64,000 nucleotides of DNA, taken from the NCBI RefSeq assembly GCF_010728725.1, contig NZ_AP022606.1:3224001-3288000 (forward strand), read 5' to 3'. This DNA comes from Mycobacterium branderi (GTDB lineage Bacteria; Actinomycetota; Actinomycetes; Mycobacteriales; Mycobacteriaceae). The notes beneath the pieces are model-generated. The model was not told where the DNA came from. It was given only the letters and a program-made list of their open reading frames with translations, and did not search any database. Below, in pieces: positions 26,425 to 62,730 of this stretch. Each line of letters begins with the position of its first letter. Positions within the stretch are counted from its first letter, which is position 1. Made by a program: the position numbers and the translations under genes.

Positions 26425-26655
26425 GTGAGCATCAATCCGTTTGACGACGACAATGGCAGCTTTTTTGTCTTGGTCAACGACGAAGAGCAACACAGTCTGT
26501 GGCCGACCTTCGCCGATGTACCCGCCGGTTGGCGGGTCGTTTACGGAGAAGCGGACCGTGCTGCGTGTCTGGACTACATCGAGCAGAACTGGACTGATAT
26601 ACGGCCCAAGAGTCTGCGCGACAGGCTGGCAGAAGGTCGAGCTTTTGTTCAGTAA
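26425..26655 (+). CDS. MbtH-like NRPS adenylation chaperone
   Basis: This 76-aa MbtH-family protein binds and activates or stabilises NRPS adenylation domains. The family signature is complete: NPFDDD at the start, then EEQHSLWP, the P-GW motif and the C-terminal [18 protein letters not shown] start it at GTG 26425 rather than the in-frame ATG 26398 because GGAGA at 26416-26420 is well spaced and the protein then begins MSINPFDDD, as family members do. Its stop lies 18 bp before the large NRPS start, so the two are almost certainly co-transcribed. It probably serves the A domains of all three NRPS genes in the window. Confidence 0.95.
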
Positions 26656-26673
26656 ATCCGTGGGGGGAGCCGA

Positions 26674-29600
26674 ATGGAACTTGGTGACCGCGTCTTCCCG
26701 CTGACGCGGGAACAACTGGATATCTGGCTTGCGCAGGAAACAGGTCAGTCCAGTACGGGGTGGCAGCTAGGCCTGTTAGGGCTGGTCGAGGGCACGATCG
26801 AGCCTGATTTGCTCGAGTGGGCGATCCGGCGGACGGTGCGCGAGGCCGAACCGCTTAGAGCGTCCTTTTTCCAGGTGGACGGCCAGGTCTTCCAAAAATT
26901 AGTTGACGACCCACACGTCGAGCTTGCTCGCTACGATCTCACCGCGTCCGAGGATCCGGTCGCAGAAGTCCATCGGATAGCCTCGTCAATCCAACGCATC
27001 CCGATGCCGCTCAGCGGGCCGCTGTTCAAATTTGCCTTATTGCAGACACGGGCCGATGAGTTCTATTTGTTCGCGTGCTGCCATCACATCGTTGTCGACG
27101 GAATCGGTCTCGGGCTTATTTGCCATCGGTTCGCGGCCGTATATTCTGCCATTGCCTCGGGGGCGTCGATTCCGCCGGCTTTTTTCGGGTCGCTGAATGA
27201 TCTGATTGATTGCGAAACAGAATATGAAGCCTCCGCCGACTATCGCAACGATGAGGCGTATTGGGCCGAGAACCTGCCGCCGGAAAGCGAGCAGGATTAT
27301 CGGTTGGCGGGTACCGAGGCAGACGCGCGTCAGCCGGATGAATCTTCACCACCGGTTCGATTGAATCCATCCGTCGTTGCCGCTGTCGACGAGTTGGCGC
27401 AAAGGTTGGGGGTGGATCGGCCGTCGGTGATGACGGCGGCGTGCGCCCTTTTGGTGCGCGGCTGGAGCCTCGACGGTTCGGAGGTTGTGCTCGATTTTCC
27501 GGTGAGCAGGCGGGTGCGTCCGGAGACGAAGACGGTGCCCGGGATGGTGTCCGGGATCGTGCCGTTGGTGTTGAAAGCCTCGCCGGGATCTGCGGTCTCC
27601 CACTTTTGCGAACATGTGCACGCGCGAATGCAAGAAGCGCTGCAGCATCAGCGGTTCCCGGTGCACGTTCTCGAGAACAAGATGCGTCGCGGCTCTGGGC
27701 AACCGTCGAATCGGGTCGTGGTCAATTTCATTCCGACCACACGCATGGGGCAGTTCGGTGGCGCGCCGGCATCGGCCACACTGACCCATGCCGGGCTGGC
27801 GGACCAGTTTGGAATGTTCTTTTTCGGCTCGGGCGATCAGCTATTCCTCAGCACGCCGGGAGCCGGCCGGTTGCTTCCCGACTGTGATGTCAGCGATTTA
27901 GCCGAGCAATTGGAGCGGGTGTTGGTGGCGATGACCGCCGACCCGCAGCGGCCGCTGTCGTCGGTGAATCTGCTCGACGAGCGACAGATCACCCGGTTGG
28001 ACGACATTGGTCATCGGGCGGTGCTGAGCCGGCCCGCGACCAAGGTGTCGATTCCGGCGTTGTTCGCCGCGCAGGCGAGCCGGACACCGGAAGCCGTGGC
28101 GCTGGTGTGCGGCGACCGCTCGTGGACCTATCGCGAGCTTGAGGAGGACGCCAACCGGTTGGCGCACCTGCTTGCCGAGCGGGGTGCGGGTCCGGGGCAG
28201 TGCGTCGCGCTGCTGTTGGGTCGCTCGGCCGAGGCCGTCGTGGCGATCCTCGCGGCGCTCAAGACCGGTGCGTCCTACATGCCCATCGACCCGGCGCACC
28301 CGCAGGCGCGGATCGAGTTCATGCTCGCCGACGCCGCGCCGATCGTCGCGATCACCAGCGCGCGGCTGGTCGACCGGCTGGCCGGGTGCGACATGCCGGT
28401 CATCGATGTCGATGACCCCGTTGTCCGCCACCACCCCGCAACGGCGCTGCCGGAGCCGGACCCGGACACCGTCGCGTACGTCATCTACACCTCGGGCACC
28501 ACAGGTGTTCCCAAGGGTGTGGCGGTGGCCCACCACAACGTCACGCAGCTGCTGGAGACGCTCGATGCCGGTCTGCCGCGGCCAGGCGTGTGGACGCAAT
28601 GGCACTCCCTGGCGTTCGACGTGTCGGTGTGGGAGATCTTCGGCGCGCTGCTGCGCGGTGGACGGCTGGTGGTGGTGCCGGAGTCCGTGGCGCGCTCCGC
28701 GGACGACTTTCATGACTTGCTGGTTGCCGAGCACGTCGACGTCTTGAGCCAGACTCCCTCGGCGGTGGCGGTGTTGTCGCCGCAGGGCCTGGAGTCGACG
28801 GCGTTGGTGGTGGCGGGTGAGGCCTGTCCGGCCGAAGTGGTGGACCGCTGGGCACCCGGACGGGTGATGATCAACGCCTACGGCCCCACCGAGACGTTCT
28901 ATCCGGCGATGACCGCGCCGTTGGCCCTGGGCTCAGGAGTGCCGCCGATCGGTTCGCCCGTGGCGGGGGCGGCGTTGTTCGTGCTCGATGGCTGGTTGCG
29001 TCCAGTACCTGCCGGCGTGGTCGGCGAGTTGTATCTGGCCGGCCGGGGCGTGAGCTATGGGTATGTGCGCCGGGCCGGGCTGACCGCGTCGCGGTTTGTC
29101 GCCTGCCCGTTCGGCGGTGCCGGGGCTCGGATGTATCGCACCGGGGACCTGGTGCATTGGCGCACCGACGGGCAGCTGCAGTACGTGGGGCGCGCCGACG
29201 AGCAGGTCAAGATCCGCGGGCATCGCGTCGAACTCGGTGAAGTCCAAGCGGCCCTGACGGGGCTGGACGGGGTCGAGCAGGCGGCGGTGATTGCCCGCGA
29301 GGAGCGCCCCGGCGACAAACGCCTGGTGGGTTATGTGACCGGCACGGCGGATCCTGCCGAGCTACGAGCCGCGCTCGCCGAGCGGCTGCCGGCCTACATG
29401 GTGCCGGCCGCGGTGGTGGTGTTGGAGGAGCTGCCGCTGACGGTCAACGGCAAACTCGACAAGCGGGCTCTGCCGGCACCGGAGTACACCGCCGGCGGAT
29501 ATCGAGCGCCGGGCAACCCGGTCGAGGAGATTCTGGCGGGCATCTACGCGCGGGTGCTGGGCGTGGAGCGGGTCGGGGTCGACGACTCGTTCTTCGACCT

Positions 29601-60817: not shown

Positions 60818-60984
60818 CTGACTTCCGTTCTACAACACAATCTTCCGCTACCGGATACCGCAAAAATAATACCGGGGACGTCGCGGCACTGGGCGCCTGA
60901 CCTGGAGAGCCGTCTGCGTCTGCGCCGAATGGTCGTCAACTTAGATGAACTTTTCGACCGTACGGCGGCAACGGTCGCGGTAAC
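60818..60984. promoter_or_regulatory. Divergent promoter region of htpG and FAAL
   Basis: These 167 bp separate the htpG start (minus) from the FAAL start (plus) and must hold both promoters. An AT-rich stretch with TATTAT on the minus strand near 60866-60876 could be a -10 for htpG. I see no clear heat-shock operator. Confidence 0.4.
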
Positions 60985-62730
60985 GTGACGGCCGTGGTGG
61001 ACACCATTTTGGACTTGCTGCGCGAGCGCGCCGGTCTGCAGGCCGATGACACGGCAGTGACCTATATCGACTACGAGCAGGATTGGTCCGGGGTTGAGCA
61101 GAGCCTGACGTGGGCGCAGCTGTACCGGCGGACCCGCAATCTTGCGCGGGAACTCGAATCTCGCGGGTCGACGGGTGACCGCGCACTCGTCGTTGCACCG
61201 CAGGGTCTCGAGTACATCGTCGCGTTTCTCGGCGCGTTAGAGGCGGGACAGATCGCGGTTCCACTGTCGGTTCCACTGGGCGGCGTCAGCGACGAGCGGG
61301 TGAGTTCGGTGCTGCGCGACGCGTCGCCGTCGGTGATTCTCACGACGTCCGCAATCGCAGGCACCGTGACCCAGTACGTCGAGTCGGAGTCCGGCGAATG
61401 CGCTGCGTCGATTGTCGAAGTCGACTCGCTGGACCTGGACGCCCGCGGCTCGTCCGGCCCCGGCCTCGAAAACCACCCGGGCACAGCGTATTTGCAATAC
61501 ACGTCCGGGTCGACCCGTACGCCGGCGGGCGTCGTGATGTCGCACCGCAACATCCTGGCCAATTTCGAACAGATTATGGCCGCCTACTTTCCGCAATACG
61601 GAGGAGTGCCCCCAGCGGACACCACGATTGTGTCCTGGCTGCCCTTCTATCACGACATGGGCTTGTACCTGGGAATTTGCGCGCCGATCATGACCGGGAA
61701 GCCCGCTGTGCTGATGAGCCCGGTGGCCTTTTTGCAGCGGCCGGCCCGGTGGATGCAGTTGATGGCAAGCAACTCTCGCGCGTATTCGGCCGCGCCGAAC
61801 TTCGCGTTCGAGCTGGCGGCGCGCAAGACGTCGGACGAGGACATGGCCGGGTTCGATCTCTCCGACGTGCTCGTCATCGCCACCGGCAGTGAACGGGTAC
61901 ACCCGGCGACGCTGCGGCGGTTCACTCAACGGTTCGCCAAGTTCAACCTGCGGGACGAGGTGATCCGGCCGTCGTACGGGCTCGCGGAGGCAACGGTGTA
62001 CGTGGCGACGCCCACGGCTACCGAGCCGGCGACCATTGTGCGGTTCGAATCCGAGAAGCTGACCGCCGGAAAGGCGGAGCGATGCGAAAGTGGGGGCGGC
62101 ACACCGCTGGTCAGCTACGGGGTGCCGGATGCGCCGATGGTTCGCATCGTCGATCCCGACACCCGTGTCGAGTGTCCGGCGGGAACGGTCGGTGAAATCT
62201 GGGTGCACGGCGCCAACGTGGCGATGGGCTACTGGCAGAAACCGCAGGAGACCGAAAGCACGTTCGGTGCAAGGCTTGTCGCTCCCTCGGAGGGCACGCC
62301 CGAGGCGCCCTGGCTGCGGACCGGCGACTCGGGATTCCTTTTCGACGACGAGCTGTTCATCATCGGCCGCATCAAGGACCTTCTGATCGTCTACGGGCGT
62401 AACCACTCTCCCGACGACATCGAAGCGACTGTCCAGGAGATCAGCGGGGGCCGCTGCGCGGCGATCGCGGTTCCGGACGAGCACACCGAAAAGCTGGTGG
62501 TGATCATCGAGACCAAGAAGCGGGGCGACTCGGAGGAGGAAGCGGCGGCCAAGCTTGCTGCCGTCAAGGGTGAAGTCACCTCGGCGATCTCCAATGTCCA
62601 CGGTCTGGCCGTCGCGGATCTGGTTCTGGTGCCGCCCGGTTCGATACCGATCACCACCAGCGGCAAGGTCCGGCGGGCGAGTTGTGTTGAGCAGTATCGG
62701 CAGGGTCAGTTCGCCCGGGTGGACGCCTAG
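60985..62730 (+). CDS. Fatty-acyl-AMP ligase (FAAL-class FadD)
   Basis: This 581-aa enzyme activates a fatty acid as acyl-adenylate and hands it to a carrier protein rather than to CoA. The P-loop motif is [13 protein letters not shown] near residue 170, the SGSTR-P form typical of FAALs. [12 protein letters not shown] near 330 and the following segment ([13 protein letters not shown]) correspond to the FAAL-specific region. GDSGF and [13 protein letters not shown] mark the hinge, and TTSGKVRRA contains the C-terminal lysine. Start is GTG 60985. The enzyme would fit as the source of the starter acyl chain for the PKS ACP or for the starter C domain of the 7603-aa NRPS. htpG lies between it and the PKS. 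It converges with the next gene, with stops 2 bp apart. Confidence 0.93.

Follow-up and report, generated by a model that had tools for sequence, protein, structure and literature searches.

A compact MbtH-NRPS-TauD operon of Mycobacterium branderi predicted to make an N-acylated, reductively released hexapeptide

The core operon

The DNA analysed here (hereafter the window) is a stretch of 64,000 nucleotides from Mycobacterium branderi, corresponding to bases 3224001-3288000 of contig 1 (NZ_AP022606.1) of a 5.98-Mb genome, and coordinates given without prefix are window positions. Three consecutive plus-strand genes with short gaps between them encode an MbtH-like protein with a GTG start (26425-26655; PF03621, 102.5 bits), a nonribosomal peptide synthetase (NRPS) of 7603 aa (26674-49485), which is the third of five such assembly lines in the genome and is termed NRPS III, and a TauD-family Fe(II)/2-oxoglutarate dioxygenase (49502-50458; PF02668), a predicted tailoring β-hydroxylase. 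The MbtH-like protein is recognized by Pfam with the full frame, the NCBIfam scan being negative with a shortened start, and its copies in M. celatum (97% identical) and M. kyorinense (95%) likewise lie immediately 5′ of the same NRPS.

NRPS III contains six condensation (C) and two epimerization (E) domains identified by Pfam, six A3 motifs of adenylation (A) domains, six thiolation (T) motifs and an NAD_binding_4 reductase at its end, and has the order C*AT-CAT-CATE-CATE-CAT-CAT-TD, where C* is the starter C domain and TD the terminal reductase. The starter C domain (26692-27699, plus strand), a predicted acyl acceptor, forms one clade (100/100) with the C domains that open the glycopeptidolipid (GPL)-type and GL8P-type lines of genome G092, where G-labels denote members of a genus sample of 297 genomes including that of the window (G000). 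The E domains of modules 3 (36151-37062) and 4 (40876-41505, a partial Pfam match), both on the plus strand, fall into the E clade (100/100), and the C domain following each falls into the after-E clade (100/99), so that residues 3 and 4 are predicted to have the D configuration. The underlying tree comprises 69 domains, namely 52 of the genome's own 61 C/E hits and 17 domains from G092 (its GL8P- and GPL-type lines only); it omits three broken pieces of line II, five hits at 3541-3552 kb and one at 3478 kb, and in it a branch sets apart each of the three classes (starter, E and after-E). Domain order, starter type, the two E domains and the reductase type are computed features, and the six-module NRPS with an acyl-accepting starter domain and a reductase described in the original prediction, which had been made from the letters of this DNA, is borne out by Pfam domains, motifs and the C-domain tree.

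Adenylation codes and the predicted peptide

Nine-letter codes of the A domains were read by alignment, with a general position rule, as extraction by pattern (regex) missed many domains. Domains in broken frames and some missed by pattern, such as the third GPL-type module of G092, are omitted, as are A domains of the non-mycobacterial loci L025, L028 and L030, whose partial codes end in EVG, an ending which we take to denote Asn. Two genomes serve for calibration. G092 encodes an eight-module line (frames of 8139 and 2803 aa) with E domains at residues 1, 3, 6 and 8, which fits the prediction for GL8P, whose peptide is T-A-F-I-Y-L-T-T (PMC11978893), and by this architecture G092 would be a GL8P producer of the M. 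abscessus type. Its eight codes are DFWSVGMVH, DVWSVAAVY, DVWTVVAMC, DFWTVGVMW, DAESLAAIC, DFWTLGAVY, DFWSVGMVH and DFWSVGMVH. The GPL-like pair of G117 (frames of 3477 and 2549 aa) has the codes DFWTVAAVC, DFWSVGMVH, DVWSVAAVY and DVHSVAAVY, consistent with Phe-Thr-Ala-alaninol, while the GPL-type line of G092 begins with DVWTAVAMC and ends, in the last code read, with DIWFVAGIY, unlike the last code of G117.

The six codes of NRPS III are DVWSVAAYP, DFLGIGGVY, DPESIGAVC, DVWTVVAMC, DARSLGAVD and DVWTAVAMC. Two of them match exactly: that of module 4 recurs at the Phe position in the GL8P-type line of G092, and that of module 6 at module 1 (Phe position) in the GPL-type line of the same genome. 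Module 1 shares 7 of 9 letters with an Ala code, module 3 shares 5 of 9 with that for Tyr, and module 2 shares 5 of 9 with that for Leu, or 7 of 9 in its M. celatum form (DFWGMGAVY). For module 5, none of the calibrated codes matches; its Arg239, together with the company of the TauD enzyme, hints at an acidic residue (Asp or Glu). The codes of M. celatum are the same at five of six modules, and those of M. kyorinense at four of the five seen, the fifth module differing by one letter (DARSVGAVD). Taken together, the codes suggest the product acyl-Ala-Leu-D-Tyr(?)-D-Phe-(Asp/Glu?)-phenylalaninol, in which only the two Phe codes are exact and residues 1, 2, 3 and 5 are putative. No Thr code occurs in the six modules of NRPS III, and an allo-Thr sugar site is therefore not expected.

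Two other assignments were considered and dropped. A basic residue at module 3, suggested by Glu239, was abandoned since in the GL8P-type line a code of this kind corresponds to Tyr, and alaninol as residue 6 was given up because the module 6 code is identical to one at a Phe position and unlike the GPL-type Ala codes. The occurrence of Glu239 at Tyr and of DVWTVVAMC at Phe (G092:C1:4799212-4831709) offers a useful calibration for code prediction in mycobacteria and, if right, would show that common rules based on charge are misleading for mycobacterial A domains.

Chain release

The terminal reductase core (48289-49077, plus strand) is identified by Pfam and by matches of the C-terminus to solved proteins, the last 455 aa scoring 747 bits against a carboxylic acid reductase and 689 bits against 4dqv, the reductase of M. 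tuberculosis Nrp. This region is 73-81% identical to those of ten other lines compared. The 17 other NAD_binding_4 hits of the genome lie in frames of at most 1213 aa, leaving the reductase of NRPS III as the only NRPS-borne one found, and a canonical GPL pair with such a reductase end was accordingly not found in this genome. The last module plus reductase is matched in frames of at least 5000 aa in at least 22 of the 296 other genomes, the largest having 14394 aa (G104); this count is a lower bound, as two candidates per genome were scored.

The original prediction named an N-acyl peptide aldehyde or alcohol with several D-residues; the acyl start and reductive end stand, the D-residues come down to two, and the alcohol appears more likely. 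GPL ends in alaninol (PMC3537567), and phenylalaninol is present in an analogue of the M. tuberculosis nrp chalkophore (PMC12140626). A reductase halting at the aldehyde, to give a peptide aldehyde such as a protease inhibitor, would agree with carboxylic acid reductases, the class of the best solved match, being described as aldehyde makers (PMC10168641), but the same source also reports over-reduction to alcohols, and against the amino alcohols of these two relatives we consider it distinctly improbable.

The TauD-family dioxygenase

The TauD enzyme has a structure model with pLDDT 91 that matches TauD folds, and its residues H99, E101 and H292 are invariant in 29 sequences. The HxE...H metal triad is, we assume, the motif of SyrP/AsnO-type NRPS β-hydroxylases, with which the enzyme shares the TauD fold, the triad and location in an NRPS locus. 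The functional names of its relatives in the homologue search go no further than TauD/TfdA or taurine dioxygenase. Relatives with at least 79% identity occur in 3 of 297 genomes (that of the window, G215 and G113), and 9 of 297 have a match at E 1e-20. Protein identity is 95% in M. kyorinense, 94% in M. celatum and 81-82% in M. angelicum and M. szulgai (in the latter as two frames), and in these last two species the gene also adjoins an NRPS, a different one of 4155 aa with which it is convergent. An open reading frame (ORF) with an A domain is present at all eight non-mycobacterial TauD loci fetched, and three of the eight carry the code DLTK(L/V)GHIG, which we take to be that of Asp. The enzyme is thus predicted to be a tailoring β-hydroxylase; membership in the TauD family stands, and the label SyrP-like given to it earlier fits the NRPS neighbourhoods of its relatives, although sequence alone does not establish it.

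The three relatives adjoining Asp-code modules would also suit a metallophore, either a lipopeptide siderophore with β-hydroxy-aspartate or an isonitrile chalkophore in which the TauD enzyme forms the isonitrile. Rv0097 and ScoE have the same fold, and the analogue of the nrp chalkophore likewise ends in phenylalaninol (PMC12140626). The role of isonitrile former is weakened by an identity of only 16-18% to Rv0097, and a metallophore of either kind is regarded as very unlikely. More distant TauD relatives (45-46% identity) lie near NRPS genes at G102:C1:777957-778931, G114:C12:502516-503490 and G065:C1:4213586-4214566, and in G102 and G065 relatives of the glycosyltransferase genes of the window genome are found near them.

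Conservation and selection

M. celatum and M. kyorinense have conserved the core operon, which is split over two contigs in each genome, and NRPS III is represented there by long open orthologous frames. NRPS III is under purifying selection with dN/dS of about 0.16, the values being 0.162 against M. kyorinense (6779 codons) and, against M. celatum, 0.154 for the N-terminal part (3282 codons) and 0.170 for the C-terminal part on another contig (3320 codons); the two M. celatum parts are unequally diverged, with dS of 0.296 (N-terminal) and 0.110 (C-terminal). TauD and the neighbouring polyketide synthase (PKS) have dN/dS of 0.099 and 0.116. Decay or silence of the operon might be suspected from the adjacent line II, which is broken into several frames, yet the 7603-aa frame is intact, and in view of the dN/dS of NRPS III and the open frames of the sister species this explanation has very little likelihood.

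Flanking genes and the FAAL-PKS cassette

The left neighbour of the operon, PEMT1, is a membrane methyltransferase of the PEMT/ICMT family (25156-25830, minus strand; PF04191/PF04140), which is 97-99% identical in M. celatum and M. kyorinense. On the right, the window contains inserted YoeB-like toxin and PIN-domain ORFs (50614-51266, minus strand; PF06769, PF01850), which lie outside the pathway, and PEMT2, a second membrane methyltransferase of the same family (51582-52256, minus strand; 67% identical to PEMT1). These genes separate TauD from the PKS in the window genome and not in the two sister species, where the TauD and PKS matches are about 20-40 bases apart and no copy of PEMT2 lies between them. 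The PKS (52313-58732, minus strand) is a reducing enzyme of the MAS/Pks2 type with the order KS-AT-DH-ER-KR-ACP, scoring 3010 bits against the solved MAS and exceeding the cut-off of the NCBIfam Pks2 model. It is followed by HtpG (Hsp90; 58889-60817, minus strand; PF00183), the only Pfam HSP90 match of the genome, and by a fatty-acyl-AMP ligase (FAAL; 60985-62730, plus strand), a possible acyl donor with 1012.9 bits against a cut-off of 775 for NCBIfam PRK05850 and 806 bits to FadD23. The FAAL, Mas-like PKS, MbtH and two membrane methyltransferases of the original prediction are all confirmed by Pfam or NCBIfam matches; its list of parts had left out HtpG.

The AT motif of the PKS is VAFH, which by a general rule is presumed to be a malonyl-like form and suggests malonyl-CoA, so that Mas-like need not mean methyl-branched. 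Among 14 matched PKS frames, nine have VAFH (that of the window included), four have LASH (G104, G102, G114 and G170) and in one (G251) the motif was not found; G187 and G279 gave no row in this search. The split suggests malonyl and methylmalonyl versions of the cassette PKS. HtpG occurs in 21 of 22 genomes, always as a single copy; its gene is at the FAAL-PKS locus in 11 of the 21 (that of the window included) and elsewhere in 10, so its co-location may be chance, and a role as a dedicated chaperone was dropped.

Seventeen FAAL neighbourhoods outside the window genome were read, of which 14 came from the top of the FAAL ranking, with some high ranks skipped (G071, G185, G060, G107, G213, G264, G102, G289, G273, G114, G251, G187, G170 and G279), and three (G104, G116 and G226) had originally been chosen for a reductase-ended NRPS. 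A PKS with 64-94% identity adjoins the FAAL in 15 of the 17, the short contigs of G116 and G226 being the exceptions, and 15 have an NRPS, whole or as a fragment, no more than about 20 kb away, the contigs of G213 and G187 ending inside the PKS. HtpG and a PEMT gene are each present in 8 of the 17. The NRPSs beside these cassettes vary in codes and length, which supports the FAAL-PKS pair as an acyl supply for giant lipopeptide NRPSs in general but gives no support to one dedicated to line III; the recurrent pairing makes such a shared supply directly testable. In G104 (C70:1-43185), PKS, HtpG and FAAL are accompanied by a single NRPS frame of 14394 aa that contains 13 T motifs and ends in a reductase.

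Boundaries of the locus

In M. celatum and M. kyorinense, one contig carries the tail of line II, PEMT1, MbtH and NRPS III, and the other carries the end of NRPS III, TauD, PKS, HtpG and FAAL; the operon therefore sits between PEMT1 and the PKS. G071 has the order NRPS, PEMT, PKS, HtpG, FAAL, with identities of 94% (FAAL), 94% (PKS) and 97% (HtpG), and the 31.6 kb read there contain no MbtH-NRPS III-TauD unit. The order is the same in G107, and NRPS, PEMT, PKS, FAAL in G185 (with the NRPS in pieces) and G060; relatives of PEMT1 thus adjoin an NRPS in all four genomes, none of which has a match to the window TauD at E 1e-20. Either the operon was inserted between PEMT1 and the PKS or it was lost in G071, which provides a natural partner without the operon for comparison by presence and absence.

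The original prediction treated the whole of 26425-62730 as one system, and this is not supported, as these four TauD-free genomes have the methyltransferase, PKS and FAAL next to another NRPS. A single dedicated cluster, in which FAAL and PKS make a special acyl chain for NRPS III only, would explain the identical order from the NRPS end through TauD, PKS and HtpG to FAAL in both sister species, and the different reductase-ended NRPS beside PKS, HtpG and FAAL in G104 also speaks for it. It is an unlikely reading given the four genomes above, the five lines with starter C domains in this genome, and a FAAL search there that scored 4 of 144 first-look candidates, of which two pass 1e-190, so that other acyl donors are possible. 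As these genes and another NRPS lie together in the four operon-free genomes, the operon is instead a plug-in. A broader proposal, speculative and on balance improbable in its full form, is that several exchangeable giant NRPSs share the FAAL-PKS pair as their acyl source, with the operon as a plug-in for a Thr-free surface lipopeptide with sugar sites on enzyme-added hydroxyls. If true, the β-hydroxyl from TauD and the phenylalaninol hydroxyl would replace allo-Thr, and species would exchange complete assembly lines next to a constant lipid-loading hub, with species-specific surface lipids as the result.

Other NRPS lines of the genome

The genome encodes five acyl-initiated lines, with C-domain hits at 3182-3332 kb and 3967-4002 kb of the contig, and the first C domains of lines I-V all belong to the starter clade described above. 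From C-domain hits, line I starts at contig position 3182134, line II spans contig 3216879-3249141 on the plus strand (beginning 7.1 kb left of the window, with its tail at 1-25141), line IV spans contig 3298764-3336153 and line V contig 3963972-4001553 on the minus strand. Four of the five starter-C lines lie within about 154 kb (contig 3182134-3336153) of this ~6-Mb mycobacterial genome. The window part of line II has six A3 motifs, one of them in a broken frame, in agreement with the further NRPS material of at least six modules noted earlier. This line is split into several ORFs and contains tandem copies of 1.8 kb at 99.6% and 4.9 kb at 94% identity, which reflect either a recent module duplication or an assembly error.

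The last domains of lines I and II are E-C-T in either case (contig 3197540-3199132; window 23552-25141), and nothing follows the T domain at the C-terminus; the PEMT/ICMT-type methyltransferase after line II makes release as a C-terminal methyl ester possible. Between lines I and II (contig 3202765-3216545) lies a GPL-like sugar block of glycosyltransferases, a UDP-sugar dehydrogenase, an epimerase and a TylF-type methyltransferase. The glycosyltransferase genes are located about 34-48 kb upstream of the core operon, which itself contains none.

Proposed pathway

As a whole, the evidence is best explained by MbtH, NRPS III and TauD forming a compact, self-contained operon for an N-acylated linear hexapeptide, to which we assign a probability of about 0.7. 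A long acyl group would probably be supplied by a FAAL and possibly be lengthened by the neighbouring MAS-like PKS, and the starter C domain would place it on residue 1. Modules 1-6 would then add Ala-like, Leu-like, Tyr-like (converted to D), Phe (converted to D), a probable acidic residue and Phe, TauD would hydroxylate the β-carbon of one carrier-bound residue, most likely the fifth, and the terminal reductase would free the chain as an amino alcohol (phenylalaninol). The acyl source, the TauD target and a role as a cell-envelope lipid are what we infer in this scheme.

Several points weigh against it. Modules 1, 2, 3 and 5 lack an exact counterpart among the calibrated codes, the identity of G092 as a GL8P producer is drawn from architecture, and the acidic reading of module 5 relies on Arg239 and the company of TauD, where charge logic is unsafe because Glu239 belongs to the Tyr code in the GL8P-type line. 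No Asp code was seen in five of the eight non-mycobacterial TauD loci, among the A domains retrieved there. The best solved match of the reductase is the carboxylic acid reductase and not Nrp, FAAL and PKS adjoin other NRPSs in relatives, and the bootstrap of the C/E tree is unsettled, the program warning that the long starter and after-E branches meet.

Comparison with known systems

The C-type GPL system (gplH-mps1-mps2) shares with this operon the upstream MbtH gene, and GPL-type lines share the starter C domain, E domains and terminal reductase; the amino-alcohol end is predicted here as well, and the long acyl chain of GPL is thought to be PKS-derived (PMC3537567). It differs in having four modules (Phe, Thr, Ala, Ala) in Mps1 and Mps2 instead of six in one gene, and NRPS III adds TauD and a last residue of the Phe type. 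The GL8P system of M. abscessus (MAB_4690c/MAB_4691c) has a starter C domain of the same clade, shared A-domain codes and an MbtH in the locus, but its hexamodular and bimodular NRPSs make eight residues, with epimerases at 1, 3, 6 and 8, an annotated terminal TE and sugars on Thr (PMC11978893), in contrast to the six modules, E domains at 3 and 4 and reductase of NRPS III. The contrast with GPL drawn in the original prediction holds for the number of modules and is weakened by the wide distribution of long reductase-ended NRPSs and by the publication of GL8P. The M. tuberculosis nrp system for a diisonitrile chalkophore has the same type of terminal reductase and phenylalaninol in a synthetic analogue (PMC12140626).

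The window TauD has the low identity to Rv0097 given above, and NRPS III differs from the nrp system in its six modules and epimerases. The nrp operon reportedly contains a TauD-fold enzyme. The serine-containing GPL of M. xenopi is likewise a lipopeptide of slow-growing mycobacteria and differs from the code order of NRPS III in its core, Ser-Ser-Phe-alloThr with a C12 acyl group (PMC7261415); G185, G060 and G107 could be members of this group.

Colony form, host response and serology of mycobacteria are shaped by their surface lipopeptides, of which GPL and GL8P are worked examples, and the locus predicts a further chemotype in the M. celatum/M. kyorinense group and gives a product class to seek. 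Literature searches, excluding preprints and most subscription journals, yielded no published report of the locus or matching product, in keeping with the earlier description of the system as undescribed. The kind is a known one, an acyl-starter, MbtH-linked, reductase-ended mycobacterial lipopeptide system related to those of the surface glycopeptidolipids and not a new kind of system, while the combination of six modules in one gene, a predicted phenylalaninol end and a TauD enzyme appears new to us.

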